Shown here: positions 25,001-42,798 of the stretch, piece by piece
How positions within the stretch are numbered: position 1 is the stretch's first letter
Layout: every line of letters starts with the position of its first letter
Assembly: GCA_028280065.1 (NCBI GenBank)
Contig: JANQMN010000069.1
Coordinates: forward strand, 29,424 to 93,423
Origin: Hahella sp.
Lineage (GTDB): Bacteria; Pseudomonadota; Gammaproteobacteria; Pseudomonadales; Oleiphilaceae
Direction of reading: 5' to 3'
Length of the DNA stretch: 64,000 nt
Notes under the pieces: generated by a model
The model's input: the letters and a program-made list of their open reading frames with translations, nothing else
Databases searched by the model: none
Told to the model about the DNA's origin: nothing
Made by a program: the position numbers and the translations under genes

Positions 25001-27178
25001 GTTGAGTTGCAAAATGGTATGGCGGTATTTAAGCAAGCCATGGAAATACGGGTCTCTAAAGGAAACAATCGGCGTTACCTGCAAGCGAATTATCGGCCGC
25101 TTAAAGAACATTATTCACAACGGATCGTACAAGTGCATGTGATGCATGAATATGCCCGGCTTGGGGCTGAACAAATCAAAGCCGCGCTGGACCTTGTGCA
25201 GGACTATTTCGTCAAGTTAAACAAGGCGTTTATCCGCCAGTATTTCCCTCGACAGAAAGGCATGTTGGAACGGGCGACAAGCCAGGAAAGCTGGGACGAT
25301 ATTGTCACCTCGTTGAACAATCCTCACCAACAAGCGGTGGTATGTGCCAAAAGCGATAAAAATCAACTGGTTTTAGCCGGTCCTGGCGCAGGCAAAAGCA
25401 AAGTCATTATCCACCGTATTGCCTACTTGATGCGTGTCGAGCAAGTAGCGGCCGGGAAAATTCTTGCGCTGACCTACAATCACAATGCGGCGGTTAGTCT
25501 TCATAAAAGACTGGTCGGATTACTGGGCAAGGATGCTTACTTTTTAAGAGTGCATACATTTCATGGCTTGGCACTGCGATTATTAGGGCGCAACGTTGAG
25601 CCTGACAAATCCGCAAACCTGGATTTTGACCGCCTAATTGAGGATGCAACACGCTTGCTAAGTGCGGAGCAATTGGAAACCGGCTTGGATGAACATAACC
25701 AAAGGGCCGTCTTGCTCGGCGGTATCGAGCATATTCTGGTAGACGAGTATCAGGATATAAATGCGGAGCAATATGCATTGATTGCCGCACTGGCCGGTAA
25801 AAACACCTCGGACGAAGATGACCGGCTCAGTTTGCTGGCCGTGGGAGACGACGATCAATCGATCTACCAGTTCCGACGGGCAAACGTTAAATACATTCAT
25901 CAGTTTCAACAGGACTATCAGGCCGATGTCAGCTTTCTGACCCAAAATTACCGTTCAACGGCAAATATCATCAGTGCGGCCAACAGCCTGATTGCGCACA
26001 ACCGGGATCGGATGAAGACCCAACATCCAATCGAGATAAACCAGGAGCGCCGCTTAGAGCTGCCAGGAGGAAAGCGGGAAGGGTTCGATCCACATCACAA
26101 AGGCAGGGTCAAGCTGGTTGAGTGTATCAACCTGCACCAACAGGCACAGGAAGTTTGCGAGCAGATCAAGGAGATCCTCCGGCGCGATAAGGAGGCCGGC
26201 TATGCCGACATAGCAATACTCGCGAGAAGTGGGATTGATAAGCCTGCGCTGTTGAGTATTCGGGCGTGCCTCCATAAACAGGACATCCCCTATAGCTTCT
26301 CAAGGACCGACGGCGAGTCTTTTCCGCTCCATGGCGTGCGGGAAATAGCCGCTTTTCGGGACTTTCTGCGGGACCGGTCGCAATCTCTATTAAGCACGGA
26401 GGCACTGCGAGCCTGGCTGCCGGAAGAGCGTAACCACTGGCATCAGTTAATCGCCAGTGTCATTGACGATTGGCAAGATCAATTTGGCAAGGACCCTGTC
26501 GAAGTAATTTTCTTTCAGCGCCAATTAAACGAGTTTTTGCTGGAACAGCGCCGCCAAACCAGAGTCGGCGCCGGGATTGTTTTGAGCACAGTCCACGGCG
26601 TTAAAGGGGAGGAGTTCAAATATGTAATGGTGGCGGATGGCAGCTGGCGCTTTACCTATGCCGATGCCGCCCATTGTGAAGAAGAACGGCGTCTCTACTA
26701 CGTGGCCATGACCAGAGCAATCGAGCAGTTGGTGTTGTTTCGTATCCAAAACGCCGACAATCCTCACCTGGCAGTGCTGGATAACAACGTGATTTCCGGC
26801 GATTTCAGCAAATGCCAGCGCCACTTAGAAGGCATGACCAGATTTCACACAGTCGGACTACCGATGTTATATCTCAGTTTTGCCGGCAGGTACCCCCAAG
26901 GGCACAAGGTGCATCATTGCCTCGATTGGCTCAATACAGGCGATCGGGTAGAAATAGCGCGGCAGTCAAGGGGAAGTATTTCGATTGTTAAGGACGGAGT
27001 TGAAATTGCCAGGCTCTCCAAGAAAGGCATTGATGAACTGGGTAATGAAATAGGCCAGGGCCGACCAGCGACAGTTATTGCGATGGTGAAAAGACTTAAG
27101 GAAGCCGACAGCGATTACAGCGAATCCTTAAAAGTGGAAAACTGGTGGCTGCCGGTGGTCGAATTTACCGTCTGCTAG
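22022..27178 (+). CDS. DEDD exonuclease-RecQ helicase-UvrD helicase fusion protein
   Basis: A 1718-residue DNA-processing protein with three modules. Residues 1-130 form an RNase H-fold DEDD 3'-5' exonuclease: D10 and E12 (LDLELS), D64 (GHNILEHDLPW) and D119 (NPVADARLA), although the usual His before the last Asp is missing. A Cys cluster (CGQSDCTYC) precedes a RecQ-type SF2 helicase: Walker A PTGGGKS near 305, DEAH near 410, QEAGRAGRDRQ near 602. After a linker comes an SF1 UvrD/Rep helicase: GPGAGKS near 1120, DEYQD near 1241, VGDDDQSIYQFRRA near 1273, STVHGVKGEEF near 1523. Its 3' end overlaps the convergent GGDEF gene by 4 bp. A role in repair or phage defence is inferred. Confidence 0.9.
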   Translation: MDFDRILSLDLELSRDGNRLHHLGAVLGSRKLDLTSPTATQMAALQRLAEDADVLLGHNILEHDLPWLAEHGYYSGRLAELPVVDTLYLSPLAFPKNPYHRLVKDYKLVKDSFNNPVADARLALRVFEDQRAAFALQFQENSHLIRVYHRLLGKEQDTRALLAALPEHCDSEPGADLPDLVQRSAVAECCQNQLRSLLESAEDTAYSPICLAYALAWLQVAGGNSVLPPWVWRRYPQVKRIIELIREQPCGQSDCTYCRQNFDTKGFLNRYFEMPDFRQLPDGTPLQRQLVDAGVRGRSLLGILPTGGGKSLCYQLPALIRNRRNSSLTIVISPLQALMKDQVDGLKNKAGIEGVAALSGMLTMPERQAVLEEVRMGDIGILYLSPEQLRNRRVKKVLQSRQISGWVYDEAHCLSKWGHDFRPDYLHCANVIAAIAKQQAEQPPPVFCFTATARLDVIKDICSHFKQKLNIELERFEGGVERDNLIYEVVETQAHSKTARILQLLDDFFGNDQPGSCVIYSSSRKGVEKLAAALTSNQPLPVAWFHAGLDPPKKREILEAFIAGQYRIIVATNAFGMGIDKDDVRLVIHCDIPGSLENYLQEAGRAGRDRQLAHCVLLFDQQDVEQEFRKAKQSEVRLKDIAELLKEIRYRAKYADGRVVATAKELLRSEYVETDISLEDNNADTKVKTAIAWLEKEGFLSREDNVTSVFQGKPLFADLKEARRKLNGLQLSRVERQRWEVILEALLSAKIDEGLSADDILDKVAGQLKQAPDKTDYSPENIMKTLSQMAQCGLLSRGFSMTAYLRPKGRNSSRSVAEIVVAIENRLLQWLPEIAPYEGSDTLHQVDIRAINSKLQADFQLPSTTRLVRIVFRNWAEDGKTSGTVGSLQFSSRGKELFTIRLQRPWSEIREIAEQRQTFTVQVLNFLYSRLTPEVANLQKKVLVEFTLEDAVSKLKEDALIRLQLADKHQIQAQEFLLKGIQRVLIFLDSCKAVELQNGMAVFKQAMEIRVSKGNNRRYLQANYRPLKEHYSQRIVQVHVMHEYARLGAEQIKAALDLVQDYFVKLNKAFIRQYFPRQKGMLERATSQESWDDIVTSLNNPHQQAVVCAKSDKNQLVLAGPGAGKSKVIIHRIAYLMRVEQVAAGKILALTYNHNAAVSLHKRLVGLLGKDAYFLRVHTFHGLALRLLGRNVEPDKSANLDFDRLIEDATRLLSAEQLETGLDEHNQRAVLLGGIEHILVDEYQDINAEQYALIAALAGKNTSDEDDRLSLLAVGDDDQSIYQFRRANVKYIHQFQQDYQADVSFLTQNYRSTANIISAANSLIAHNRDRMKTQHPIEINQERRLELPGGKREGFDPHHKGRVKLVECINLHQQAQEVCEQIKEILRRDKEAGYADIAILARSGIDKPALLSIRACLHKQDIPYSFSRTDGESFPLHGVREIAAFRDFLRDRSQSLLSTEALRAWLPEERNHWHQLIASVIDDWQDQFGKDPVEVIFFQRQLNEFLLEQRRQTRVGAGIVLSTVHGVKGEEFKYVMVADGSWRFTYADAAHCEEERRLYYVAMTRAIEQLVLFRIQNADNPHLAVLDNNVISGDFSKCQRHLEGMTRFHTVGLPMLYLSFAGRYPQGHKVHHCLDWLNTGDRVEIARQSRGSISIVKDGVEIARLSKKGIDELGNEIGQGRPATVIAMVKRLKEADSDYSESLKVENWWLPVVEFTVC

Positions 27179-28134
27179 TTTTTCTGTCTGTCCGCGAGCC
27201 CTAGATCTTCTATTTTGGGTGTCAGTTCAACCTGCTTAATACAGAGTCGATTGCGGCTATCGCGCTTGCCGGCATAGAGCAGATCGTCGGCAATCTTCAG
27301 CGATTGCGCCACTTTTTCTCCTGCTTGCGGTACACATACGCAGGCCCCGATCGTGATGGTTACCACCGGCGCTGCCGACGATTGGTTATGCTCGATATTC
27401 AGATCTTCCACGCCTTTTCGACAGGATTCCAGGATATGCCGTGAGCCTTCCAGATCGGTTTCCGGCAAAATGATACAGAATTCCTCGCCGCCGTACCTGC
27501 AGACCAGGTCACGCGGACGTTTCAGCTTCACTTCGAGAATATTTGCAATGCGCCGTAACACCTGATCGCCGGCGGCATGGCCGTAATGATCGTTATACAG
27601 TTTGAAGTGGTCCACATCGACCATGGCAATGGCTAACGGGTGCCCGGTGCGATTTGAATTGGACCATTCGATATTGAGTTTTTGCTCCATCTGGCGCCGG
27701 TTCGGTATGGCGGTGAGGGAGTCCAAATTCGCCAGCTCCTCCAGCATGCGCCGTTGCTTTGCCAGTTCCAGGTGGGTAAATACCCGGGCTTTGACAATCT
27801 CCGCATGAAAGGGTTTGTGAATATAATCGCAAGCGCCCAGTCGCAGGCCTCGAGCTTCATCGTGGTGAGAGTCCAGGGCGGTAATAAACATTACCGGGAT
27901 GTTCTTGGTTTCATCGTCGCGTTTGAGCTGTTCGAGGACCTTAAAGCCGTCCATGTCCGGCATGATGATATCCATCAATATTAGCGTCGGGTTCTGGCGG
28001 CGCGCCAGATCCAGTGATTGCAGGCCATTTTTGGCCAAAACGATCTTGCCTTGCGACTTCAGAAGATCGTAGAGAATTTTTCGATTGGATTTTTCATCAT
28101 CCACAATCAGGATAATGGGTCTTTCAATCTGCAT
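27175..28134 (-). CDS. Response regulator with diguanylate cyclase (REC-GGDEF)
   Basis: A 319-residue c-di-GMP synthase under receiver control. The REC domain (1-120) has phospho-acceptor D55 in LILMDIIMPDMDG. The GGDEF domain (about 130-305) has an intact active site GGEEF near 214-218 and an RxxD inhibitory site (RPRD) five residues before it, so it should be active and feedback-inhibited. It starts 38 bp after the stop of the giant hybrid kinase on the same strand and is the obvious phosphorelay output of that kinase's Hpt domain. Confidence 0.92.
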   Translation of the reverse strand: MQIERPIILIVDDEKSNRKILYDLLKSQGKIVLAKNGLQSLDLARRQNPTLILMDIIMPDMDGFKVLEQLKRDDETKNIPVMFITALDSHHDEARGLRLGACDYIHKPFHAEIVKARVFTHLELAKQRRMLEELANLDSLTAIPNRRQMEQKLNIEWSNSNRTGHPLAIAMVDVDHFKLYNDHYGHAAGDQVLRRIANILEVKLKRPRDLVCRYGGEEFCIILPETDLEGSRHILESCRKGVEDLNIEHNQSSAAPVVTITIGACVCVPQAGEKVAQSLKIADDLLYAGKRDSRNRLCIKQVELTPKIEDLGLADRQKN

Positions 28135-28172
28135 AAGGATTCCAGGTTTAGTATATGCGTTGAATCGTTCCG

Positions 28173-31100
28173 TCAGCGCTGCATTTCTTCTTCAAGCAGC
28201 TTAAGTTTTACCAGGGCCTGATCATATTCGATATCGTCCAGTAATTCCTCAATAGTTTCGGCGGCTTCTTGGTGCTGAGACCCCGAGCAAATTTCATTCA
28301 ACGCCGGCATCAAGTCTTCTGCCTTGGCGTCGGAGTCCTCAACCAAAGGAATCAGGCGTTGCACAATGCCCAGTGCTGCCTGGAAATCGAAATCAGTATT
28401 CGTCATCACTTTTTGCTTGATTTTTAAATCGACTTCCATGCGTTTGATCAGGTTTTCGACCAGTTCTATGGTGATTTCCATTTTATTGGATATATGTTGC
28501 TTTTTGTCGACCGCCAGTTCCAGCTCTTGAGCGGCTTTGGAGATCACTAAAGCGCCAATGTAGGCAGCATTGGAACGCAGCGAATGGGCAAACCGATAAA
28601 GGGTTTCCAAGTCCTGTTCCTGCCAGAGCTTGGTCAGTTTTCCACGAATGTCGCGATAGTCCTTGACGAAGTCCACTGCCAGGTTCAGGTATAAGTCGGT
28701 TTTACCCTGGATCTTTTGAATCGCAACATCGACCATTAGCTGTGGATTAGCGTTTAATGCTTCCAGCAGTTGTGCGTTGCTGTCATTGGTTGCAATCCGG
28801 GATACGGCGGGCCGCTTGCGTTGCATGATCAAATCGGTATCCATCCATCTTGCCATCTTATGATAGAGGTCGTCCGGATCGATGGGTTTTGTGATGTGGT
28901 CGTTCATCCCGGAATTCAGGCTTTTTTCCCGCTCGCCCGGCATGGCGTGTGCGGTCATGGCAATGATTGGCAGCTTTTCCCGGTCCGGTAGCTTACGGAT
29001 TTCTCCCGCCGCCGTCAGGCCATCCATTTCCGGCATCTGAATATCCATCAGCACCAGGTCATATTCGTTGTTGTGAACTTTTTCGACGGCGACCTTGCCG
29101 TTTTCAGCGATATCCAGGGAGATACCGGTCTCGTTCAGAAAACCTATCGCCACTTGCCGGTTGATCGCATTATCCTCCACCAGCAAAACACGGCCACCGG
29201 ACATGTCGAGCAGGGGGGATTTGGCGGTTTCTTCCGGCGGCGGCAGAGGCTGGGAACCGCTGGTTGGAATCAGGCAGTTGGTGATGGTATTGATAAGGCT
29301 GGATTGATGGAAGGGTTTTTCCATGTAACCTTCAATTCCGACGGCGGCGCACAAGGATTGGGCTTCATCCTTATCGTAGGCCGAGGCCATCAGAATCGCC
29401 GGGGTGTTCGCCATGTCCAGGTTTTGCTTGATGATGCGGGATGCTTCGATACCATCCATTTGCGGCATTTTCCAATCCATAATCACCAAATCGAAAGGTT
29501 TTCCCTGGTCATATTGTTCTTTGACCAGGGTAACGGCCTCCTGGCCGTTTTCCGCTTCCATGATATTGGCCTTCAGGTGGCTTAACATGGTGGTCAGCAC
29601 CGCCCTGGTAATTTCGTTGTCGTCCACCACCAGTATGTTCAAATTGGCCAGCGACAGGAGCGATGGCAGTTGGGGCTGTCGCGCGGCGACTTTGGCTTGT
29701 ATGGTGAAGCCGAATTCGGACCCTACATCGGGTTGGCTGGATACCCATATCTGCCCCCCCATCAGTTCCGTCAACTGTTTGCTGATCGCCAGTCCCAAGC
29801 CGGTGCCGCCGTATTTACGCGTGGTGGAATCGTCTGCCTGGGAGAAGGATTGAAACAGCCGATTGCATTGCTCCTCTTTCATGCCTATGCCGGTATCGCG
29901 CACTATGAACTCCAGTGTCATCATGCCTTTGGAACGGGCTTTGGGCTGTACCATGATGGCGATGTGGCCGGTTTCGGTAAATTTGATGGCGTTATTGGCC
30001 AAGTTAACCAGAATCTGCTGTAAGCGCAGAGGATCGCCGACCAGCATTTTCGGAATGTCTTTACTGATATCGACAATGAGTTCCAGCCCTTTGGCGTAGG
30101 CTTTCAGGGCGCAGACATTAATCACCCGGTCCAGCAGTTTTTCAAGATTGAACTGGATCGACTCCAACGTCATCTTACCGGCTTCAATCTTGGAGAAATC
30201 CAGAATGTCATTGATAATACCGAGCAATACATCCGCCGAATCGACAATCTTTTCCAGATAGTCCTGTTGTTCGGCAGTGAGCTTGGTTTTAAGCGTGAGT
30301 TTACTGAGACCGATCACTGCATTCATCGGCGTTCTGATTTCATGGCTCATTTTCGCCAGAAAGTCGGATTTGGCTTCGTTAGCGGCCTTCAATTGCAGGT
30401 TTTTTTCTTCGATTTCGGCAGTACGGGCCTGCACTTCGGATTCCAGCAGCGCATAATGATTAGCGTTAATTAGTGCAATCGCGGCGTGGCTGGAGAGCAG
30501 CTTGAGAATTTCCACACGGCGCCTGTTAAAAGCGCCGGCAATCAGGTCATTTTCCAGGTACAGCACACCGATCAGCTTGGCTTGGTAATGAATGGGTAGG
30601 CCGATGACCGATTTGGTCTGATTGCGGCGTATATAGGGGTCGTTTTCGAACTTAGGATCATTCGATGCTTCGTCCAGCAGTACCTGTTGCTCGGTACGTA
30701 CTGTCACATTGAATACCGAATGGGCGTAATCTTCCTCCGACGGAAGGGTTGTCGGATCAAAATGCTCCAGTTGATTATCGATGACCTTGGCGCCTGCCAG
30801 TGCTTTGATGCGGCTGTTTTTTTGGAAAAACAAAATGCCCTTTTGTGCGCCTGCGTTTTCAATGCTGATTTTAAGCAATGTTTTCAGCAGGTTGTCCAGG
30901 ACGATTTCCTGCGACATGATTTGGGACGCCTTCAAGATCGTCACCATATCCAGGCTCTGGCCGCCGGTGACAGTGGAGGCGTTCCCCTGGCGGGTTGCGG
31001 ACGATGACACGATGTGCTCGGTGGACTCCAGTAGGGGGACGAATTCGGAATAGGCGGACTCCAGATGCACGACCTTGCTGGTTGCCTCCCACTTGTTGTA

Positions 31101-34100
31101 GTAATAGCGCGCCTGACGCAAATGGTAAACCGCCAGTTCCTGCAGGCCGCGTTGGATGTAAAAGCGTGCGGCGTATTCCCAGGCCAACGCGCATTCATGA
31201 ACAAATCCCTGATCCCGGGCATGTTCTATTGCGGCGTGATAATGTTCGTTGGCTTTACCGAAATCGCCTTCCAGGCGTGCTTGCTCCGCTTGGATCAAGT
31301 GACAGCGATGTAAGTGATTCTCCGGCGCATGGCTTGCCCATTTACGCAGTTTGGCCAAATCGGCTTTGACCTTGCGTAAGGTCTTGCGCCGTTCCCATCC
31401 GGTTTGCTGTTCCGCTGCAGTGAGTAGAGCCAGGGCTTCGTAATAATGAAACAGAATCACGGCAAACATGCCCAGGCCGCCCTTAATATATTGCCGGCCC
31501 TTGTTGGCGCAATCCAGGGCTGTGTCCTTGTCGTTGAAATACACGCTCAGCATCAACTTGGCGCAATAAAGCAAAAACAGTGCGCTAACGTCGGTATTGG
31601 CGGTGTGTTCCGGCAGCTTTTTCTGCTCATCGTAGGCAACTCCCTGGAGACTTACGGGATTTTCCGTCTCTTGTTGAAAGTTCTCGGCGGTCTGCCACCA
31701 GATGGCATGCCAGTTTATCGAAGGTATGACCTTGAAGCTTTCCAGGTCCTTTTCCGCAGTTGCCATGGTCTGGGTCAGGTCACGAAGTGGGGCACCGCAG
31801 TGGAACTCGGCCTGGAGTTTGTTGTTGAGCGAATAAGAGGCATATTCGATATCGCCCAGTTCCAGGCAAAGTTTGTAGGCATTGTACAGCTCGGGCACCG
31901 ATTCACGTATGTGGTGCTTGTAGTTCTTTATAATCCAGCCCCAATAGAAGAGCGACTGATGAATCGGCAGACCCTGTTTGCGGGCCAGATCGATACCGCA
32001 TTTTCCGTACTGGTATCCCAGGTCGATATTACCCAGCACCGCACACTCGGTGATACCCCACCAGGAAAGACCGAATCCGGCTATTTTAGAATACCCGTAC
32101 TTGATGGTATTGCGGGTTAATTGAAATATCACCAGAAACACCAGATTGGGTGATGCCCAATAAGCCGGCGGAATAGTCAGGCCCAGGATATTCATCGATA
32201 AGCCTACTTTCGGGTCCTTCATGGCGGGCAACTCCATAAGCTTAGCGATCGGTTTCCGCTTGACCGCCATTTTGGTGCGCAGCAGGTTCAACAACACATC
32301 CATTTCACCGGGTTTGTCGGGAAACTGACAGTCAAGTTCCTTCAGGGCTTTCAGCGAGATCGCCACTGCTTCCGCCAGGCGGTTTTGCGCGGTATACGCC
32401 TGGAGCCGAATGGCATAGGCCTGGGTAATCGACGGCAGGTCGGTCAGGTTTGTTTGTAACTCGTCCAGCCAGCCTTCCATCAGGTCGTATTTCTTGCTCA
32501 GAAAGGCGACTTCGGCGGCGAAAAGCAGCAGTTCGGTAACAATTTCCTTACGGCTTTGCCAGTAGTCGCCGGGCAGCGCGTCGATGGCGAGCTGAAAGTA
32601 GTGTAAAGCCGGCGCATAGGCAGTGGCTTCCTTAGCGCGCCGTCCGGCTAACAGGTTGTAGTGCAGCAGATTGTCCTTGGAAGCCTGTTCCTGAAATACG
32701 TCTTTGGCGAGATTAAGATGTTTCACCAGTTCGAAAACCCGTTGTTCCGCCTCTTCCTTGGATAGCGCTTCCAGCAGCGTGGTGGCGATCTTTTCGTGAA
32801 TGTGGGTCGTCCGGTCGGTTTCGATTAGGCCGTACGCTGCCTGCTGAATGCGGTCGTGGATGAACTGGTAGGAGACCTGATTGAACTGGGAATCCAGGCG
32901 GGCGATACGGTAGTTGGAATCCAAAGGCTTGAGAATGCCTTCCATGATGGCTGGCTCCAGCCAACCGGCAACTTCGGTCGTGGCGGATTGCAGAATCACC
33001 GAAAGGGTTGTTAGGTCAAACCGGTTGCCGATACAGGCGGCATAGGTGAGACAGGTTAAGGTGTCGCTTTCCAGCTTACGCAGTTTAAAAGCCATCAGAT
33101 CGACGACGTTGTCGGTAATGTTGAGCTGTTTAATCTGTTCAAGGTCGGTCTGCCAGCAGAGTTCCTGGGCGTCGAAACTGATCAGGTTCTCCTTGTAGAG
33201 ATTGTTCAGGAACTGAATCAGGAAGAAAGCATTGCCCTGGGTTTTCTCGTTAATTAGATTGACCAAGGGATCGATATCCCGGCTATGTCCCAGGGCATCG
33301 CCCACCAACTCGTAGACGGCGTTTTCCTTGAGATTACCTACTTCCACCCAGTTTAGCGGGACATGGGCTGTTTGCATGTCATCGAGTAACAGTTGAAACG
33401 GGTGGCTGGACGTTACTTCGTTGTTCCGGTAGGCGGCAATGATCAATAGGTACCGGGATTCCCGGTCACTCAGCAAATAGCGCAAGAGATTCATCGATGC
33501 CGAGTCCGCCCATTGCCAGTCGTCGATAAATACCACAAGCGGATGATTTTCCCGGCAGATGGTCTTGAAGAAGATATTCAATGCATAATTAAAGCGGTTC
33601 AGCGCCTGTTCCCCGTTTAGTTCGGGGGGCTCGGGTTGCTTGCCCAGCAGGGTTTCCAGTTTGGGGACCAGCTTAACCACTACGCCGGCAACATTACCGA
33701 GACTTTCCAGCAAGGACTGCTTCCAGGTTTGCAGGGAATCTTCGTCTTCCTTGAGTATTAAGTTGATCCATTCGGAAATTACCGAAATCCAGGCGAAGTA
33801 GGGAATATCGCGCTCGTATTGATCAAACTTGCCGGAAATAAAAAGACCGTGTTTCACGGTAAGCGGCTTATGAACCTCGTGCACCAGGGAACTTTTTCCG
33901 GTGCCTGAATAACCCGACACCAGGGTTAGTTCCTTGCCGCCGCTACTGGTGCGTTCGAAGGCACTCAGTATTTCCTGAATTTCTTCGTCTCTGCCGTAGA
34001 GCTTTTGGGGAATCTGAAAATGCGCCGAGTAATCCGCCAATCCCAGCTCGAATGGCTCGATGCGGCCATGTTCCTGCAACTGGCGCAAACAACGTTGCAG

Positions 34101-34898
34101 ATCGTGTGCCAAGCCTTTGGCGCTTTGATAACGGTCGTCAGGCATTTTTTCCATCAGCCGCATGATGATACTGGATAAGCATTCCGGCAGATTGGGATTA
34201 AGCTGGTGGGGAGAAGGGGGCACGAGCGCAATATGGGCGTGTACCAGTTCAATACCATGTAAACCTTCGAACGGGAGTGAGCCGGTAAACAACTGATAAA
34301 GGGTTGCTCCGCAGGAATACAGGTCGGAGCGGTAATCCAGCGCACGGTTAAGGCGACCGGTTTGTTCGGGCGCGATATAGGCGAGGGTGCCCTGTAAATC
34401 ATTTTGGTGCTGAAATTCTTGATGTTCGAGCTTCAGGCGGGTGGCGATGCCGAAATCGATGAAATAAAGCTTTTCGTGCTCCTCCTGCCAGATCAGGTTG
34501 GTGGGATTGATATCCTTATGAATCACTTGCTGGTCATGTAGCTGGGAAAGTATTTCCGCCAATTGCAGGGCAATTTCCAAACGCCTGGTAAGGTCCGGAT
34601 GCTCGGTCTTGAGCCACTTGGCAAGATCAACTCCGCCAACGTCCTTTTCCACCATTACCAGGGTGTTTTGATAGGCTTCCAGACGCTCAACCTGAATAAC
34701 CTGTTCCAAATGATCCAAAGAACGGGTGTTTTCATACTCGGCCCGAAAGTTGGATAGCTCCGTCAGGGTCGGGAAGTCCTTGTTCAACACCTTGAGAATG
34801 AAGGTTTGGCCGTTTTCCAAATGGCGGGTGCGATAGACGCGGGCATTTTCGCTTTCGAAAAGGCGCTCGGTAATCTCATACTTCAATATGCTTTGCAT
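28173..34898 (-). CDS. Giant Ser/Thr kinase-ATPase-GAF-histidine kinase-REC-REC-Hpt hybrid (HstK-like)
   Basis: A 2241-residue soluble signalling protein. Order: Ser/Thr kinase (1-275; Lys36, VIHKDINPTN near 120, DFG near 147, APE); AAA-type ATPase (about 300-520; GYSGTGKSS near 330); a long helical repeat region (about 600-1300); GAF (about 1315-1475); histidine kinase (H-box FLAKMSHEIRTPMNAV near 1518, HATPase with GTGLGLAISK); REC1 with Asp near 1806 (LVIMDWKMPQMDG); REC2 with Asp near 1949 (LVLMDIQMPEMDG); Hpt with His near 2101 (FAHSLRSN). This is the layout of cyanobacterial HstK-type proteins. No membrane helix is evident, so it senses cytoplasmic signals. Confidence 0.93.
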   Translation of the reverse strand: MQSILKYEITERLFESENARVYRTRHLENGQTFILKVLNKDFPTLTELSNFRAEYENTRSLDHLEQVIQVERLEAYQNTLVMVEKDVGGVDLAKWLKTEHPDLTRRLEIALQLAEILSQLHDQQVIHKDINPTNLIWQEEHEKLYFIDFGIATRLKLEHQEFQHQNDLQGTLAYIAPEQTGRLNRALDYRSDLYSCGATLYQLFTGSLPFEGLHGIELVHAHIALVPPSPHQLNPNLPECLSSIIMRLMEKMPDDRYQSAKGLAHDLQRCLRQLQEHGRIEPFELGLADYSAHFQIPQKLYGRDEEIQEILSAFERTSSGGKELTLVSGYSGTGKSSLVHEVHKPLTVKHGLFISGKFDQYERDIPYFAWISVISEWINLILKEDEDSLQTWKQSLLESLGNVAGVVVKLVPKLETLLGKQPEPPELNGEQALNRFNYALNIFFKTICRENHPLVVFIDDWQWADSASMNLLRYLLSDRESRYLLIIAAYRNNEVTSSHPFQLLLDDMQTAHVPLNWVEVGNLKENAVYELVGDALGHSRDIDPLVNLINEKTQGNAFFLIQFLNNLYKENLISFDAQELCWQTDLEQIKQLNITDNVVDLMAFKLRKLESDTLTCLTYAACIGNRFDLTTLSVILQSATTEVAGWLEPAIMEGILKPLDSNYRIARLDSQFNQVSYQFIHDRIQQAAYGLIETDRTTHIHEKIATTLLEALSKEEAEQRVFELVKHLNLAKDVFQEQASKDNLLHYNLLAGRRAKEATAYAPALHYFQLAIDALPGDYWQSRKEIVTELLLFAAEVAFLSKKYDLMEGWLDELQTNLTDLPSITQAYAIRLQAYTAQNRLAEAVAISLKALKELDCQFPDKPGEMDVLLNLLRTKMAVKRKPIAKLMELPAMKDPKVGLSMNILGLTIPPAYWASPNLVFLVIFQLTRNTIKYGYSKIAGFGLSWWGITECAVLGNIDLGYQYGKCGIDLARKQGLPIHQSLFYWGWIIKNYKHHIRESVPELYNAYKLCLELGDIEYASYSLNNKLQAEFHCGAPLRDLTQTMATAEKDLESFKVIPSINWHAIWWQTAENFQQETENPVSLQGVAYDEQKKLPEHTANTDVSALFLLYCAKLMLSVYFNDKDTALDCANKGRQYIKGGLGMFAVILFHYYEALALLTAAEQQTGWERRKTLRKVKADLAKLRKWASHAPENHLHRCHLIQAEQARLEGDFGKANEHYHAAIEHARDQGFVHECALAWEYAARFYIQRGLQELAVYHLRQARYYYNKWEATSKVVHLESAYSEFVPLLESTEHIVSSSATRQGNASTVTGGQSLDMVTILKASQIMSQEIVLDNLLKTLLKISIENAGAQKGILFFQKNSRIKALAGAKVIDNQLEHFDPTTLPSEEDYAHSVFNVTVRTEQQVLLDEASNDPKFENDPYIRRNQTKSVIGLPIHYQAKLIGVLYLENDLIAGAFNRRRVEILKLLSSHAAIALINANHYALLESEVQARTAEIEEKNLQLKAANEAKSDFLAKMSHEIRTPMNAVIGLSKLTLKTKLTAEQQDYLEKIVDSADVLLGIINDILDFSKIEAGKMTLESIQFNLEKLLDRVINVCALKAYAKGLELIVDISKDIPKMLVGDPLRLQQILVNLANNAIKFTETGHIAIMVQPKARSKGMMTLEFIVRDTGIGMKEEQCNRLFQSFSQADDSTTRKYGGTGLGLAISKQLTELMGGQIWVSSQPDVGSEFGFTIQAKVAARQPQLPSLLSLANLNILVVDDNEITRAVLTTMLSHLKANIMEAENGQEAVTLVKEQYDQGKPFDLVIMDWKMPQMDGIEASRIIKQNLDMANTPAILMASAYDKDEAQSLCAAVGIEGYMEKPFHQSSLINTITNCLIPTSGSQPLPPPEETAKSPLLDMSGGRVLLVEDNAINRQVAIGFLNETGISLDIAENGKVAVEKVHNNEYDLVLMDIQMPEMDGLTAAGEIRKLPDREKLPIIAMTAHAMPGEREKSLNSGMNDHITKPIDPDDLYHKMARWMDTDLIMQRKRPAVSRIATNDSNAQLLEALNANPQLMVDVAIQKIQGKTDLYLNLAVDFVKDYRDIRGKLTKLWQEQDLETLYRFAHSLRSNAAYIGALVISKAAQELELAVDKKQHISNKMEITIELVENLIKRMEVDLKIKQKVMTNTDFDFQAALGIVQRLIPLVEDSDAKAEDLMPALNEICSGSQHQEAAETIEELLDDIEYDQALVKLKLLEEEMQR

Positions 34899-35005
34899 AG
34901 GCAGGTTTTCTTAGTTGTTTACAATGGCATGTTAGGTTAAGAGCGGCCGATATCCGTTGCGCTTAAAAAGCGTCTGCCGACTTGTTACTGCAGTCAGGCG
35001 GAAAC

Positions 35006-36343
35006 TTATGCCTGGAGAAACAATCGCTCCACTTCGGCAACCAGGCGTTCGTTTTCACTATCCTCGCGTAGCGACGGGAACATGGAAAAACAGAGTTGAT
35101 CGTCGAACGACAGATTGATAACGACAACTGCACGGTTGATCAGCGCCGCTCCGCCGGCGTCTAGCGGGTCTACATTCACGGCGCTTAAATGCGCCAGTGA
35201 TTCGCAACCCGCCAGGAACGATTTACCGGCTAGGAAGCGATAGTTATTCCAATTGGTGATGATATAGGAAAGTTCATCGTCTGCCGTACCGACGGCATTT
35301 TCCGCCGCGCCTTGTTCCACCAGTTCAAAGCAAGTCAAATTAATCTGCCGGGACTTGAACTCCACTATGCGGTCGTGAACGCCTTTGGAAATATGCTCAA
35401 CCGGTATCTCACCTGGCGTGGATACCGGTACGAAAGCGATATAATTGCCGATATATCGCCTGCGAAAATCCGCGGGCAGCAAATCAGACACGGTTTTTCC
35501 GCTGATGATATGCGGCTCGTTCTTGCCCAGGTGCTCGGTATTGATGTTGTAAAGCGCTTTGTGGAGAACACCGGTGATCACCGCGTTCTTGGTTACCTCG
35601 GGAAAGGCGGTACGGCAGTGCTCGATCATTCGCTTGGCATCGACCACCACCGTAACCGGGCGGCGTTTACGTTCGGCGAATTTTGGCAGCAACTCAGGCA
35701 GCGTAGCCAGGCGCACGCCATGGCCTCCGACATCGGCAATGGGATAGCTGGCCAGATGTTGGACATTCGCTTCCAGGTCATAATCCGGCGTCCGGAGGCG
35801 TTGGATCATTTCTTCCGCATGCAGGGTGTGGAGATTGCTGGCCTGGCTTACCAACTCCCGCATCGTTTCGTAATTGTTGACCTCCATGGCGTTGTAATAG
35901 TCGACGATCAGGTGCAGGATAGTTTCCGCGCTACGGGCGTCGATGTACTCATGCGAGCACATTTGCGCCAGTATAAACCGGTTTTCCGTTTCCGGATGAG
36001 TGCTCTTGATCACCACCAGATTCATCGGAAAATTTTTGCTAGAGGATCGAAGTTCGAAACCTCTAGCGGAGAGTTCTATAAATTCCTCTTCGAGGTCGTC
36101 TGTTTCCAACACATGAAACCGATCTTCGTATGCGGCAAACGGACGCCAGTGAAAATCGTTTTGTGCCGTGAAGTCAATTTGGTGGCCGAATTTGCCTATA
36201 TTATCGACAATGGCATGAAATGCTTCCCGCAGATTTTCAGTGTTCAAATCTCCCTGGAAAACATAGCCGGCAGTAAAGAGAATTTCCGCACGGCTCATTA
36301 ATCCTTCTAGATTTAATTTGCCTACAGAATGTGATGTTGTCAT
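35006..36343 (-). CDS. HxxxD-motif acyltransferase/condensation-like protein
   Basis: A 445-residue protein with features of the CoA-dependent acyltransferase superfamily (chloramphenicol acetyltransferase, condensation and BAHD fold). The motif H131-EYI-D135 is followed by ARSAETILHLIVDYYNA, matching the catalytic HxxxD context. A second conserved-looking block, DFRRRYIGNYIAFVPV, sits where such enzymes form the channel floor. No carrier-protein or adenylation domain is attached. It lies 107 bp upstream of the hybrid kinase and 102 bp downstream of the lipoprotein gene on the same strand. The substrate is unknown and the assignment is from motifs only. Confidence 0.65.
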   Translation of the reverse strand: MTTSHSVGKLNLEGLMSRAEILFTAGYVFQGDLNTENLREAFHAIVDNIGKFGHQIDFTAQNDFHWRPFAAYEDRFHVLETDDLEEEFIELSARGFELRSSSKNFPMNLVVIKSTHPETENRFILAQMCSHEYIDARSAETILHLIVDYYNAMEVNNYETMRELVSQASNLHTLHAEEMIQRLRTPDYDLEANVQHLASYPIADVGGHGVRLATLPELLPKFAERKRRPVTVVVDAKRMIEHCRTAFPEVTKNAVITGVLHKALYNINTEHLGKNEPHIISGKTVSDLLPADFRRRYIGNYIAFVPVSTPGEIPVEHISKGVHDRIVEFKSRQINLTCFELVEQGAAENAVGTADDELSYIITNWNNYRFLAGKSFLAGCESLAHLSAVNVDPLDAGGAALINRAVVVINLSFDDQLCFSMFPSLREDSENERLVAEVERLFLQA

Positions 36344-36445
36344 GGAGAGTCAACCTTAAACACTTCACCAAACGGAATTGGGGTGGAGTTACCTTGTACT
36401 GTTCTGGTAAGCATAGCAAAAACCGCCGCGAACATTGGGTTAAAA

Positions 36446-38062
36446 TCAGGGAATTTCACAGGAATAAACCCCGGCGGGACAGGCGTTATTTTGGTAAAAC
36501 GCACAAAATTTATCTGCTTTGCTACGGCTGGGGACCGTCTTGCCCGCGACCTTCTCTTCACATCTACCGGTTGAAGTGAAGTTGTAATCCATCTTGGCAT
36601 TAATGCAAAGTGTTCGCAGATTGGCTTCCGAAGGATGATTTACCCAGGTGTCGGCGCAGCTTTTTTGTGCCGCGTCGGTATCCATTCCAGGGGAATCGCT
36701 TAGCAATTGAGCAATACATATGGCCTGCATATCGATTTGCTCGTCCTTCACTAAATCAAACGACTTGTAGCCGCTGCTTTGGCAAGAGGGGCTTGGGTCG
36801 CCGGGACAGCACTGATAGGTAGTGACATCCGGGTGGTTGGTGGCGACCCAGGACGTGGTTTTCCGGGCTCCCGGCAGGGTCGTAGTGCCGGCATAGGGAA
36901 GCTCATATCGGACCGGCTGACCGGTGATGGCGGCCCATGCCTTGCGTGCGTCGCTGCCCAGCACCATGACCGGCAAGGTATGTCCGGTTGAGCGGTTACC
37001 TGGCGGATCAGCGAGCAGGTTGATCATGGGAGCCACGTAATTTCCGCCGCTCGCGGAGTTGTTGAAGTAAGTCATAATGTCCGGCAGGAAAGGGGATTGG
37101 CCGGAACCGGGAGCGGCAATAGGCCGAGAATCAACGATGGTATTGTAGAGGTGAGGATTGGCGATACCCGCCGACTTGAGAATCCGGTTCCAGCGGTCCA
37201 TGGTGAAGTTATCCAGATAATCGCCGCTGGTCAACGCATCATAGGGGGGATAGTTTAGGTAATTCACGATTTTCTGATTCAACATGGCCAATCCCAAGGG
37301 TAAATAAAACGCCCAGGGCGCATTACCGATATAAGGTTCCCAGCAGCCGGCGTTGTTTTGGCAGGCTTTTACACCCTGTAAGCCCTGTTGACCGTGCGCG
37401 GTATCCATAAAACGCTGATGCATGACGGCGAAGTTCTCCAACAACGCGGCATCGCTGCCTTCCAGCTCCACCACGGCCGGTTCCCCCGGGGTTGCCGTAA
37501 CGCTGAGAATGTGAATTTCATTGGTTAGTCCGGCGTTATCGATGGACTGTTGGGTAAAGTGCTCAATGGTTTTGGCCAAGCTACTGTAGTTAAACCATGG
37601 TGGCGAGGGCTTTGGCTGTGAGTCGGCAAAAAACTGCTCGCCTTTGGAGCAGACAAGGGTATTATCTTGAGCGCCCAATCCACAGACCAGGTATTCGTGT
37701 TGATATTGCCCGCCGTCATAGCAGTGGAAGGCATTGTTGCTTGCGAAGCAGCTGAAGGTTTCCTGCTTTTGCTCGCCATACTCGCTATACGTCAGGGTGC
37801 ACTTTCCCGGTGCGGTAATCCGGCAGGTGAAGCTGCCGTGCCGGTCGGCGCAACCTTGGTCCGCAGCGGTTGCGGAGCGGGTGGTTAACCCGCCGTATTG
37901 ACTATAAAAAGCCGGCAGCCAGCTATCATGCGGATAGAGGCATACGGCTTTTTCGGACAACTCATATTCAATGACACTGGTATTCGACTGTTGAGGCAAT
38001 GCACTACATGCCGTAAGCAGCCATCCTGTCAGCATCAGCCATATTAAACAAGCTTGTTTCAT
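36446..38062 (-). CDS. Cys-rich lipoprotein, paralogue of the 386-residue neighbour
   Basis: A 538-residue outer- or inner-membrane lipoprotein: signal peptide with lipobox LTAC, Cys19. The N-terminal 150 residues are rich in Cys (CRITAPGKCTLTYSEYG). The centre, near residues 250-320, is clearly related to the next gene product: FYLPLGLAMLNQKIVNYLNY against FFLPLGLAMVRQKSLQFFHY, and TIVDSRPIAAP against TVVDATPIAAP; later, WVATNHPD against VLSTNHPY. I do not recognise the family. AGGA lies 7 bp before the ATG. It is transcribed after the 386-residue gene (39-bp gap). Confidence 0.75.
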   Translation of the reverse strand: MKQACLIWLMLTGWLLTACSALPQQSNTSVIEYELSEKAVCLYPHDSWLPAFYSQYGGLTTRSATAADQGCADRHGSFTCRITAPGKCTLTYSEYGEQKQETFSCFASNNAFHCYDGGQYQHEYLVCGLGAQDNTLVCSKGEQFFADSQPKPSPPWFNYSSLAKTIEHFTQQSIDNAGLTNEIHILSVTATPGEPAVVELEGSDAALLENFAVMHQRFMDTAHGQQGLQGVKACQNNAGCWEPYIGNAPWAFYLPLGLAMLNQKIVNYLNYPPYDALTSGDYLDNFTMDRWNRILKSAGIANPHLYNTIVDSRPIAAPGSGQSPFLPDIMTYFNNSASGGNYVAPMINLLADPPGNRSTGHTLPVMVLGSDARKAWAAITGQPVRYELPYAGTTTLPGARKTTSWVATNHPDVTTYQCCPGDPSPSCQSSGYKSFDLVKDEQIDMQAICIAQLLSDSPGMDTDAAQKSCADTWVNHPSEANLRTLCINAKMDYNFTSTGRCEEKVAGKTVPSRSKADKFCAFYQNNACPAGVYSCEIP

Positions 38063-38101
38063 AGTCGTATCCTGACAGTCAAGGTGATCTTCAGCAATAG
38101 C

Positions 38102-39262
38102 TCAAGCCGGCTTTGGAATTTTGAAGCTGAATTCCAAAGCTTTCGGATCCGGATAGAACAGCGACCCCTGATGCTCCACCAATTGCCTGACCTGATCTGT
38201 GCGGTTCGCATCGCGCCAGTAGTCGATACCGGCATCCAGCACTACCTGTGGATCCTGGCTCGGATCGTTAGACATCTGCACCTGCCAGTGCGCGGCGGCA
38301 AGATCGTCCTTCATCAATGCGATGACAGAATCCAAATGCCCAGGAGCGATTTCGCCGCATCCCACGTAGTATTTGTCCGGCTGCTTATCGTCGATTTGCG
38401 CCTGGGCATAGAACCGGTAGGGGTGGTTGGTGGACAACACCCGCGTCTTTTTGCCCGGCACTATTTCGGCAGTGGCGACTTTGTTGATGCCTAACGTTTG
38501 ACCTGTGCCCTTAAGAAATATTTCCTCGAACTCTTCACGGGGATGAGCCCCGTAGATAACGATGGGAATAGTATAACCTTCCTGATTCTCTGCCGAATTC
38601 AGGAGCAGCTTAACCAAGTCGGTTTGGTAGGTGGTGAAATACTCAATGGGAATCAGTCCGTATTTATATTTGCTCTTGTCTACCTTCTTGGAACCCTGGT
38701 CGTCCGGCGCCGCAATAGGGGTCGCGTCCACCACGGTTTCGTACAGCCAGCTGGCCTGTTCGCTGCTTACGCCATTGACTTGCAGCAGCTCTTCCCAGCG
38801 CACCGGAACCGGATCGTTCAGGTAGTCGCGCATGGGGTCCAATAGGCGAATTGGCGGATAGTGAAAAAACTGCAGGGATTTCTGCCGCACCATCGCCAGC
38901 CCCAGCGGTAGGAAGAAGCGCCATTGTCCGGTATTTTCCGGGTCCCATTTGCCGATCTTATGCAGCTCCGGAATCACCTGATCTAAAGCCTGCTGGCCAA
39001 TGGCCAGCAGTTCCTGAAGGCGTTCGGCATAACGCGAGACCACCGGCTGTTGATTCTCTTCAGCGACCAGTTCCAGGTAAACCTGTTGATCCTCAAGGAT
39101 CGCGGTCGCCTTGATTTGCTCGGCAACACCGTCGCGTTGCAGGGTTTGATCAAACCAATGCTGAATCGTCGCGCTGAGGGACTCGTCGGCATTGGGGAGG
39201 TTTGGATAGGAATAGAGTGCTGTCAGGTCCGCTTCGGTCCCGAGAGGTATCCGAGTCTTCAT
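38102..39262 (-). CDS. Cytoplasmic paralogue of the lipoprotein, unknown family
   Basis: A 386-residue protein with no signal peptide or membrane segment. Residues 114-185 (WRFFLPLGLAMVRQKSLQFF, then DYLNDPVPVRWEELLQVNG and YETVVDATPIAAP), then YTIPIVIYGAHPREEFEEI and KTRVLSTNHPYRFYAQAQID, align with the 538-residue lipoprotein next door. AAGGAG precedes the ATG, only 12 bp after the DNase II stop, so co-transcription with the nuclease is very likely. A cytoplasmic partner, inhibitor or carrier of the nuclease is conceivable but unproven. Confidence 0.78.
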   Translation of the reverse strand: MKTRIPLGTEADLTALYSYPNLPNADESLSATIQHWFDQTLQRDGVAEQIKATAILEDQQVYLELVAEENQQPVVSRYAERLQELLAIGQQALDQVIPELHKIGKWDPENTGQWRFFLPLGLAMVRQKSLQFFHYPPIRLLDPMRDYLNDPVPVRWEELLQVNGVSSEQASWLYETVVDATPIAAPDDQGSKKVDKSKYKYGLIPIEYFTTYQTDLVKLLLNSAENQEGYTIPIVIYGAHPREEFEEIFLKGTGQTLGINKVATAEIVPGKKTRVLSTNHPYRFYAQAQIDDKQPDKYYVGCGEIAPGHLDSVIALMKDDLAAAHWQVQMSNDPSQDPQVVLDAGIDYWRDANRTDQVRQLVEHQGSLFYPDPKALEFSFKIPKPA

Positions 39263-39274
39263 GTTTTTGGCTCC

Positions 39275-40576
39275 TTATGTGATGTCGCCGCCGATACGTT
39301 CGATTTCATTCAGGTCCTGCCAGAGCGTTGGTTCATGAAAGCAGATAGCACCGCCGCCCCGTTTTTCCTGGGAGGTCATGCGGTTTAAGTCCGCCACGCA
39401 GACCCAGGCGGCGTCGGTGCCGCTTTCGGTATCCACTTCACGGACGCCACGTTCCTCGGGTTTTTCCGATAACGCCCACTTGGAATGATCATGGGTGTAA
39501 GCCCAGGTGTAACCTTGCAACGACTGGCCTTGGCTGTCATTTAACATGGCCAGGTCGAGATTTGTGATTTCATCCTCGTCATGTTGACCGTCACCTTCGA
39601 CAAACTCATGATGGTAAAGCGTATCCTTGTGTTTATTCACACTGTCATCCTGGCCATATTCCGCATTGCCCGAACTATCAACATTTTCAGGGAGTGTGGC
39701 GGAGGCAGTCAGACGCCGCCAGGTTTCTACCCGAAGGTCGGTATCTAGTTTGGGTCCCACCAAATTTATCCAGAAGTCATCATGCCAAGCGCCACTTTTG
39801 GCAATAAGTCGAAATGACTTGCCGGCTTGGGAGCTAAACTCGATGTCGGCAGGGTCGCGTTTGCCGTGCTTGGCGATGTAACTGGAGGAATACGAAGGGG
39901 GTTCGATACCCTGAGCGAGCCGCCATAGGTCCGGCCACTTTGAATTTTGGGTGACTGTTGAGGGAAGCCGGCAACCAAATACCTGGGGTTCGTGTTGGGT
40001 CGACAGGACCTCGGCGATACGATTGGCGGTTGCTACATCCTTGAGGCTGATGCAGATGAATGTTTGGGCGTAGGTGTAAGCGTACTCGGGGTAGAAGTAG
40101 TCTTCGTCGTTTTCCAGGTGCAGGCCGGGAATTCGCGGAGTGGAATGGGATAACCAGAAGGCAGTATCCGTAGCCAGATCGAATGCCAGCGTGCCCTTAC
40201 AATGGCCGTTATGGCTGTTATCTATCGGATGTCCCCGGTCCTTTTCCCGCGCGTTCTCGCTATAATATTTGGGTGGTCTGTTCGGAGGCCAGTCCTCGCG
40301 TTGTAATGAATAGGGGTATTCATCGTTATAGTGAATCCAGCCGATAGATTCGGAGTTGTCTGTCAACAACTGCACCATCGTATGGTAAAGCGCACCCTTG
40401 GCAGCGGTTCCTAAGGTATTGCTGGATAGAGCAAGTGTCCTCTGCTTGTCGCCGTCATAGTAAAGATATTCATTACCCTTTGTCTTCTTGCCAGTAGGGC
40501 CGGAGTCTTTGGGAAGTTTATACATAAACCACCAGTCGGTGGCATCACCAGTTTGATCGTTTTTTGCAGATAACAT
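39275..40576 (-). CDS. Deoxyribonuclease II family nuclease
   Basis: A 433-residue homologue of eukaryotic acid DNase II (phospholipase D-like HxK fold). Diagnostic blocks are DWWFMYKLP at the N-terminus, GHCKGTLAFD with H125 and K127, AFWLSHSTPRIPG, DHSKWALS with H364 and K366, and CVADLNRMTSQEKRGGGAIC near the end. Both catalytic HxK motifs are present. DNase II cuts DNA without metal, leaving 3'-phosphates. Unlike the animal enzymes there is no signal peptide: the start ATG has AAGGA 5 bp upstream and leads straight into the domain. It is first in the gene train running down to the GGDEF regulator. Confidence 0.88.
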   Translation of the reverse strand: MLSAKNDQTGDATDWWFMYKLPKDSGPTGKKTKGNEYLYYDGDKQRTLALSSNTLGTAAKGALYHTMVQLLTDNSESIGWIHYNDEYPYSLQREDWPPNRPPKYYSENAREKDRGHPIDNSHNGHCKGTLAFDLATDTAFWLSHSTPRIPGLHLENDEDYFYPEYAYTYAQTFICISLKDVATANRIAEVLSTQHEPQVFGCRLPSTVTQNSKWPDLWRLAQGIEPPSYSSSYIAKHGKRDPADIEFSSQAGKSFRLIAKSGAWHDDFWINLVGPKLDTDLRVETWRRLTASATLPENVDSSGNAEYGQDDSVNKHKDTLYHHEFVEGDGQHDEDEITNLDLAMLNDSQGQSLQGYTWAYTHDHSKWALSEKPEERGVREVDTESGTDAAWVCVADLNRMTSQEKRGGGAICFHEPTLWQDLNEIERIGGDIT

Positions 40577-40827
40577 AGGATCCTTCCGGTCAGGCTGAGG
40601 TTAGTTATTACGGCATATAGTGTTGTAGAAGAAAGCCGATTTCGCCAGTCAGAAAGTGTGGATTTGATGTTTGCCGAAGATATTTGATGCTTTGTTATTG
40701 AAAGAGATGAAGAAATGATCAATGTAAAGCGGTTTCCAGTAAGTCCGGCCGATATGCCAACATCTAGCCGATATGTTTCCATGATCCCAGGGTAACAGGT
40801 AGTTCCCGAAATCGAAGACCTTCAGAC

Positions 40828-41274
40828 TTATAGCGCCTTCTTGCTTTCTGAAGCGGAATCGGGCATTTCATTTTGCTCCGCCTCCAAGGCTTCGAGCCAC
40901 TCAAACGCCTCCTTGTCAATGACGCTAATATGGTGGTTTAGCCAGCAGTTCAGATAGCGTCTCAAGTCTTCAAGCTTGATTTCTCCCGTTGACTGCCACA
41001 GCTCTTGTTGCTTAATCATGAACTCGAAGAAATCGGTATGTTCCTGTTTATGGGCATTAGTGCGAGGATATCCGTCAAACAGCTCTTCTTCGTAACCGAA
41101 GTGGTATACCGTGTACTTGAGGAGTGAGTTTAAAATCTTTTCTATTTCATACCGCTCATTCGCGGTAATTTCTTCCCCAAGCCGATTAATAATGTTGAGC
41201 AGCCGTTTATGCTGACTATCAATATCTTCTCGTCCTACAGACATTTCGTCTCGCCAAGAAACCGTTTCAAACAT
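40828..41274 (-). CDS. Bacteriohemerythrin
   Basis: A 148-residue O2-binding di-iron protein. Iron ligands are visible in order: DSQHKRLL (His22), HFGYEEELF (His57 and Glu61), HKQEH (His73 and His77), and NHHISVIDKEAF (His and Asp). The length is a little above the usual 130-135, owing to a polar C-terminal tail. It stands alone, 250 bp upstream of the DNase II gene and downstream of a small unknown gene. It may deliver or sense oxygen; its place next to signalling genes fits a sensory use, but that is inference. Confidence 0.92.
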   Translation of the reverse strand: MFETVSWRDEMSVGREDIDSQHKRLLNIINRLGEEITANERYEIEKILNSLLKYTVYHFGYEEELFDGYPRTNAHKQEHTDFFEFMIKQQELWQSTGEIKLEDLRRYLNCWLNHHISVIDKEAFEWLEALEAEQNEMPDSASESKKAL

Positions 41275-41289
41275 GGGAAGTACAGCGGC

Positions 41290-41529
41290 CTAGTGATTTG
41301 GCCGGCTTTTGCTCAATCCATAACTATCAAAACTGTTGCACATGGCAAACTCGATTCCCTGACGAATCAGGCATGAAATTTTGCTGTACCGCATTTCAGT
41401 CGGAATTATCGGGTTTACTCCTTCCGGAACATCCCAGCTACCACTTAAAAGCTCTACTCTAAAGCCGCTTTTATGCTGTACGGCTTTATCTGATACAAAG
41501 TGCCAATCCATAAATTTTTCCCATCTCAT
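41290..41529 (-). CDS. Small conserved-looking protein, unknown function
   Basis: A 79-residue protein starting MRWEKFMDWHFVSDKAVQHK, then GFRVELLSGSWDVPEGVNP and CLIRQGIEFAMCNSF. The mix of Trp, charged and hydrophobic residues looks like a real globular protein, but I do not know the family. The frame is open up to an ATG at 41592, but that would cross a hairpin (41572-41588), so the inner start is preferred. It lies 15 bp upstream of the bacteriohemerythrin gene on the same strand. Confidence 0.55.
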   Translation of the reverse strand: MRWEKFMDWHFVSDKAVQHKSGFRVELLSGSWDVPEGVNPIIPTEMRYSKISCLIRQGIEFAMCNSFDSYGLSKSRPNH

Positions 41530-41638
41530 ATCTAATCTAATTTCATAAAAACTATTTTCGAGTAGGGTGTAGCGGTTGTCGAAACCGCACAATTTGCAAA
41601 GGTTGCAACCCGGTGGTCTATACCACCTGCCTTACCGC

Positions 41639-42193: not shown

Positions 42194-42257
42194 GCGGCAC
42201 CCCCATAAAAATGTTTCGTCAGGGGCTATTAACTAAAATTTAACGAACCCGTTGTAG

Positions 42258-42273
42258 CTGTTAAGTTTGACAG
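42258..42273. promoter_or_regulatory. Lux box upstream of luxI
   Basis: CTGTTAAGTTTGACAG fits the CT-N12-AG form with CTGT/ACAG half-sites. It lies 65-80 bp upstream of luxI and overlaps the 42278 end region of the preceding gene only at its edge. Confidence 0.6.
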
Positions 42274-42277
42274 GTGG

Positions 42278-42709: not shown

Positions 42710-42753
42710 TGGCTATAATGGTGTATTGTAAACACTTGTCGGCATGTTGGTGA

Positions 42754-42769
42754 TTGATAAATCTGACAG
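42754..42769. promoter_or_regulatory. Second lux-box-like site in the luxR/DUF4902 divergent region
   Basis: TTGATAAATCTGACAG matches the luxI box at 12 of 16 positions and keeps the TGACAG half-site. It lies 30 bp before luxR and 45 bp before the DUF4902 gene. Confidence 0.45.
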
Positions 42770-42798
42770 GTATATGAAAGGCCAAGAGGCTGGTCAAA

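Follow-up and report, generated by a model that had tools for sequence, protein, structure and literature searches.

A gene train in Hahella sp. encoding a bacterial DNase II homologue, a giant dual kinase, and a REC-GGDEF protein

Introduction

Deoxyribonuclease II (DNase II) is a nuclease mainly studied in animals, and its bacterial branch is represented in the PDB by putative deoxyribonuclease-2 structures (5i3e and 5unb), which we take to come from Burkholderia thailandensis. Proteins that combine a Ser/Thr kinase and a histidine kinase in one polypeptide are described as HstK-type dual kinases (Phalip 2001, cited in PMC2176072 and PMC1262709). Here, we describe a train of six genes in which both types of protein are encoded side by side. 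It lies in a 64,000-nucleotide stretch of Hahella sp. (contig JANQMN010000069.1, positions 29,424 to 93,423), which we call the window. Our literature search, which reached few subscription papers, found no description of this cluster.

The genes of the train belong together functionally, a conclusion that is well supported by their conservation and by a recurrent gene neighborhood. The DNase II gene is an optional member, and the looser form of the locus usually has a PF04185 phosphoesterase instead. The common output across the versions is a nucleotide second messenger. Our preferred reading, which we hold tentatively, is that the train is a kinase- and second-messenger-controlled phosphodiester-hydrolase module with DNase II as one exchangeable enzyme. 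The locus provides a reproducible genetic context and a possible control circuit for bacterial DNase II, and it defines an unnamed protein family, here called P2, whose fusion partner points to phosphoester chemistry.

Layout of the train

The train comprises the following features, given in the direction of transcription.

40577..40827, minus strand, 251-bp gap upstream of the DNase II gene, probable transcript start
39275..40576, minus strand, gene 1 (P0001), DNase II homologue of 433 amino acids, Pfam PF03265
38102..39262, minus strand, gene 2 (P0002), leaderless P2-family protein of 386 amino acids, without known family
36446..38062, minus strand, gene 3 (P0003), P2-family lipoprotein of 538 amino acids, lipobox LTAC
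35006..36343, minus strand, gene 4 (P0004), HxxxD acyltransferase-like protein of 445 amino acids, HxxxD motif
28173..34898, minus strand, gene 5 (P0005), giant dual kinase of 2241 amino acids, Pfam domains
27175..28134, minus strand, gene 6 (P0006), REC-GGDEF response regulator of 319 amino acids, Pfam domains

The six open reading frames and the gaps of 12, 39, 102, 107, and 38 bp between them are exactly those given by an earlier sequence-only reading of this DNA, and the six genes probably form one operon. A scan for sigma-70 promoters and terminators yields promoter-like sites below the shuffle mean and terminators near the shuffle mean. An opposite-strand gene (22022-27178), which encodes a 1718-residue fusion resembling an exonuclease-like start followed by RecQ-type and UvrD-type helicases, overlaps the end of the REC-GGDEF gene by 4 bp.

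Conservation and recurrent gene neighborhood

Gene neighborhoods were read over 10 to 20 kb, with genes called by a simple codon-usage script. The sequence-only reading had proposed a search for the gene order in other genomes, and a search of 197 relatives with P0004 leads to G1049, a genome of another genus of the same family, where five of the six genes (DNase II, P0002-like, P0004-like, kinase, and REC-GGDEF) follow in the same order on one strand, with gaps of about 21, 358, 79, and 40 bp and with flanks that differ from those of the window. The five proteins are 60 to 73% identical between the two trains. The proportion of nonsynonymous differences (pN) is 0.17 to 0.26 and the synonymous sites are saturated (pS, 0.79 to 0.83), indicating that all five genes are under purifying selection. 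The P0003 counterpart is missing, as the 358-bp gap holds no P3-like frame in its place, and the 251-bp gap upstream of the window's DNase II gene shows no visible conservation with G1049. L074 61-3792, which lies some 9 kb away from the G1049 train, gives a strong PADLOC match to PDC-S37 (1447 bits) and may be a defense-island neighbor.

That the six genes are unrelated neighbors facing the same way by chance is highly improbable. Promoters could lie in the 102- and 107-bp gaps, and DNase II occurs alone elsewhere; however, the gene order that G1049 keeps between other flanks largely refutes this reading, and the recurrence of the set in the L002 and G327 loci described below also speaks against it. 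The sequence-only reading had itself named, as grounds for giving up the grouping, DNase II genes found mostly without the other five. The G1049 train speaks against that outcome, although solitary DNase II genes do exist (L008, L010, and L011).

In more distant genomes (G561, G1011, G840, and G883) a recurring locus encodes a GGCT/AIG2-like protein, a 247-residue protein, a giant kinase, a P2 protein, and a PF04185 phosphoesterase, the latter having an N-terminal repeat region that contains "LWxFDP". An assignment of the 247-residue protein as DUF4336 or metallo-beta-lactamase-like was dropped, as it found no support in Pfam or NCBIfam. None of the four genomes has a near-full-length giant-kinase homologue other than the one at the P2 locus, and we estimate from the genome sizes that kinase and P2 genes would fall within 20 kb of each other by chance in three independent lineages with a probability in the order of 1e-6.

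Two further loci bring DNase II and the phosphoesterase together. In contig L002, from a metagenome-assembled genome labelled Rickettsiaceae, a gene for a 1118-residue fusion of P2 and phosphoesterase follows the end of a GAF-GGDEF gene and precedes a DNase II gene, all on one strand. In G327 (L009 6800-17300) phosphoesterase, DNase II, GGCT-like, 247-residue protein, and kinase genes lie together, all of them frame-broken, which may reflect decay or sequencing error. The fusion and adjacency of P2 and phosphoesterase, together with a DNase II that takes the same position, suggest phosphodiester hydrolysis as the common chemistry.

The kinase front is constant across these loci and its output varies. 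The window and G1049 have HisKA-REC-REC-Hpt with a separate REC-GGDEF protein, G561 and G1011 have GGDEF, and G840 and G883 have a Guanylate_cyc domain. Ser/Thr kinase-AAA16-GAF giants ending in Guanylate_cyc are found at L056 4052-9427 and L055 415-5769, with conserved neighbors. One giant kinase scaffold accordingly keeps its neighbors and swaps its output among phosphorelay, cyclic di-GMP (c-di-GMP), and nucleotide cyclase. The full phosphorelay that had been counted as part of the set holds for the window and G1049, but in the other relatives GGDEF or Guanylate_cyc replaces it.

The proteins of the train

P0001 matches PF03265 with an E value of 3.7e-68 and 230.6 bits (cutoff, 23) over profile positions 4 to 318 of 326, and its HxK motifs GHCKG and DHSKW align with GHTKG and DHAKW of the Burkholderia DNase II, so that the assignment of gene 1 as DNase II stands. 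The closest solved structure is 5i3e (E value, 2.4e-43), and metal-independent acid DNA cleavage is the predicted activity. P0001 has no signal peptide, and this absence does not stem from a mis-called start, since GGAAGGA precedes the start and the N-terminus MLxAK... is common to G1049 and L002. Identity is 67% to the G1049 protein and 52% to the partial L002 DNase II, and the DNases II from clusters are closer to P0001 than the other DNases II seen. The family is rare, occurring in 1 of 295 genomes of the order, 4 of 369 of the class, and 1 of 299 of the phylum, with the window's own genome counted each time; none was found in viral contigs and phages. The neighbors of the Burkholderia pyrrocinia DNase II (L008) include tyrosinase, ferritin-like, and metallophosphoesterase genes. 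This unusual neighborhood (L008 10001-20973) also holds a PNP_UDP/GTPase gene and, about 9 kb from the DNase II gene, a VgrG-type hub fragment.

P0002 and P0003 have no match in Pfam or NCBIfam. They are paralogues (27% identity over 356 amino acids; E value, 8e-28) and P0003 has the lipobox LTAC, in agreement with the sequence-only reading; the lipoprotein is absent from G1049, however, so that the proposed pair of cytoplasmic and envelope paralogues is not essential. P0002 is without a leader and 67% identical to its G1049 counterpart, and P0003 is most similar to an exported P2 protein, that of G561 (39%). A profile search finds P2 in 15 of the 399 genomes of a phylum sample, including most of the sampled members of genus g56, and finds none in plasmids and viral contigs. 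Most members of an 18-member family alignment are exported, several as ordinary lipoproteins. The P2 profile gives only a chance match in the PDB (E value, 0.21), and the AlphaFold model of P0002 from a three-row alignment was not used (predicted local distance difference test [pLDDT] score, 50; predicted template modeling [pTM] score, 0.41).

P2 also occurs in other settings. In four of nine g56 genomes it adjoins a twin-arginine (Tat)-type phosphoesterase; one of these enzymes was tested and proved to be an acid phosphatase by profile (TIGR03397, 813 bits). G418 encodes a different histidine kinase next to P2. The window's genome has a third P2 paralogue (L020 642-1820), which is leaderless, 41% identical to P0002, and adjoined by solute-binding-like genes. 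A similar chemoreceptor is encoded near both this locus and the train, which suggests an old segment duplication. In L020, G691, G738, G791, and five g56 genomes, P2 has neither a giant kinase nor a phosphoesterase within the DNA read.

P0004 has no sequence match in Pfam, NCBIfam, or PDB and does not match the condensation-superfamily profile. Its HxxxD motif (H131..D135) is conserved in the sole homologue found among 197 relatives, that of G1049 (65% identity), so the acyltransferase-like label proposed for gene 4 keeps its motif but gains no family. The single-sequence AlphaFold model (pLDDT, 33) was not used. Six congeners, searched for P0004 only, lack it; the full train is hence accessory, and it probably moved horizontally.

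P0005 has the Pfam domain order Ser/Thr kinase, AAA_16, helical repeat region, GAF, HisKA, HATPase, REC, REC, and Hpt, combining a Ser/Thr kinase (PF00069) with a histidine kinase (PF00512 and PF02518) in one protein. By eye, both sets of kinase motifs are present, and both activities are predicted. It is 60% identical to the G1049 kinase over its full length, across 2253 amino acids, and 30% identical over the N-terminal 1500 amino acids to the kinases of the P2 loci; the window's genome has three near-full-length homologues. P0006 joins PF00072 to PF00990, is 72% identical to its G1049 counterpart, and is PleD-like, with a GGEEF motif and an RxxD I-site (RPRDLVCRYGGEEF in the sequence). These Pfam domains bear out the kinase hybrid and the REC-GGDEF protein first read for genes 5 and 6.

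Quorum-sensing flank

Immediately upstream of the train, a compact quorum-sensing locus at 40828-43509 of the window encodes a hemerythrin-like protein, a LuxI-type synthase (41639-42193), a DUF4902 protein, and a divergent LuxR, and a lux-box-like palindrome, ACCTGTCAAACTTAACAGCT, stands before luxI at 42258-42273. A quorum-sensing-controlled public-goods operon driven by this locus is conceivable, since the LuxI, DUF4902, and LuxR genes lie 1 to 3 kb upstream, luxI is on the strand of the train, and the lux-box-like site precedes it. We consider such control very unlikely, because the 251 bp before the DNase II gene (40577-40827) contain no CTG-N10-CAG match to a lux box and no quorum-sensing genes are seen beside the G1049 train; LuxI and LuxR were not seen beside the distant loci either. 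Read-through from luxI into the train may occur, an arrangement not seen in G1049. Another candidate LuxR-type site is the near-perfect palindrome CTGTCAAAAGTGACAG (44674-44689), which stands about 234 bp upstream of the solute-binding-like gene at 43538-44440.

Possible function

In the preferred reading of a controlled phosphodiester-hydrolase module, the soluble STAND-like dual kinase, with its Ser/Thr kinase, AAA_16 ATPase, repeats, and GAF domain, would sense a condition and feed a phosphorelay of HisKA, REC, and Hpt, from which the REC-GGDEF protein would receive its phosphate and make c-di-GMP. The working parts would be a phosphodiester hydrolase, DNase II here and a phospholipase C- or acid phosphatase-type enzyme in most relatives, together with a P2 partner. 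The likeliest job would be to break down phosphate-rich polymers (DNA or phospholipid) of the matrix, of dead cells, or of competitors, coupled to surface or biofilm behavior. The leaderless DNase II would need a further export or release route to act there; its nearest P2 partner P0002 is likewise leaderless, and the two may act inside or outside the cytoplasm. The signalled DNA-degrading program proposed in the sequence-only reading remains an inference.

Several observations weigh against this module. DNase II occurs without the cluster in G643, G592, and B. pyrrocinia, no P0004 was seen at the distant loci, and PDB profile search and AlphaFold point to no fold or function for P2. Secreted scavenging or matrix turnover would fit the exported P2 proteins and the Tat-type enzymes; however, DNase II, P0002, and most of the cluster phosphoesterases (those of G561, G1011, G883, and L002) have no signal peptides and fit it poorly.

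The leaderless proteins would suit an intracellular conflict module, in which the kinase detects phage or damage and, by phosphorelay and second messenger, frees DNase II or a phospholipase against invader or self DNA. Such a role agrees with a patchy distribution, a cytosolic sensor that has an NTPase and repeats, the use of nucleotide second messengers in every version, the leaderless DNase II, P0002, and the four phosphoesterases just named, and the PDC-S37 candidate near the G1049 train. On the other hand, P2 is exported in most members and stands beside a Tat-type acid phosphatase, no c-di-GMP-binding domain is seen on the effectors, and the window's flanks are quorum-sensing and chemotaxis genes and not a defense island. 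PADLOC gives no match for P0001 to P0004 and P0006 and matches P0005 by its generic kinase domain only. We regard this defense role as unlikely, and as unlikely the accompanying view that P2 restrains or positions the enzyme.

The same leaderless hydrolases, attacking DNA and membranes, could also be secretion-system cargo meant for other cells, with P2 as carrier or adaptor and the kinase timing production. The P2-phosphoesterase fusion of L002 and the VgrG-type fragment near the leaderless B. pyrrocinia DNase II point in this direction, but the train and its immediate surroundings show no secretion-system gene or recognized targeting domain, the rest of the B. pyrrocinia gene set differs, and several P2 members are ordinary lipoproteins, which makes delivery decidedly unlikely.

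Beyond the hydrolase module, it is possible, though not likely, that the loci form a new class of response locus in several proteobacterial lineages, in which a STAND-like kinase with an exchangeable output would control leaderless phosphodiester hydrolases of DNase II or phospholipase C type via P2, a new accessory family, as an inducible cell-damaging or corpse-degrading program. The outputs exchanged would then be, on a similarly speculative footing, a phosphorelay with c-di-GMP, direct c-di-GMP, or a class III nucleotide cyclase.

Comparison with known systems

The train resembles CBASS-like (cyclic-oligonucleotide-based antiphage signaling system) defense in encoding a nucleotide second-messenger enzyme next to a nuclease. 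It differs in that a cGAS-type synthase is absent, the nuclease shows no sensing domain, and PADLOC gives only the generic kinase match.

Phospholipase C and acid phosphatase loci (PF04185, TIGR03396/TIGR03397) are related through P2, which in relatives adjoins or is fused to these enzymes, whereas the trains of the window and G1049 have no adjoining PF04185 gene and carry DNase II in its place.

With the bacterial DNase II branch (5i3e/5unb), P0001 shares a nearly full-length PF03265 domain and both HxK motifs, and the B. pyrrocinia relative is likewise without a signal peptide. In contrast to that protein, to which it is about 31% identical, P0001 has extra segments and the kinase operon context, which is absent in Burkholderia.

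The accessible parts of the HstK literature (PMC2176072 and PMC1262709) make no mention of DNase II or P2 genomic partners. As far as these sources describe them, HstK-type kinases share with P0005 the Ser/Thr kinase, GAF, and HisKA/HATPase domains in one polypeptide, to which P0005 adds REC-REC-Hpt and a partner REC-GGDEF protein.

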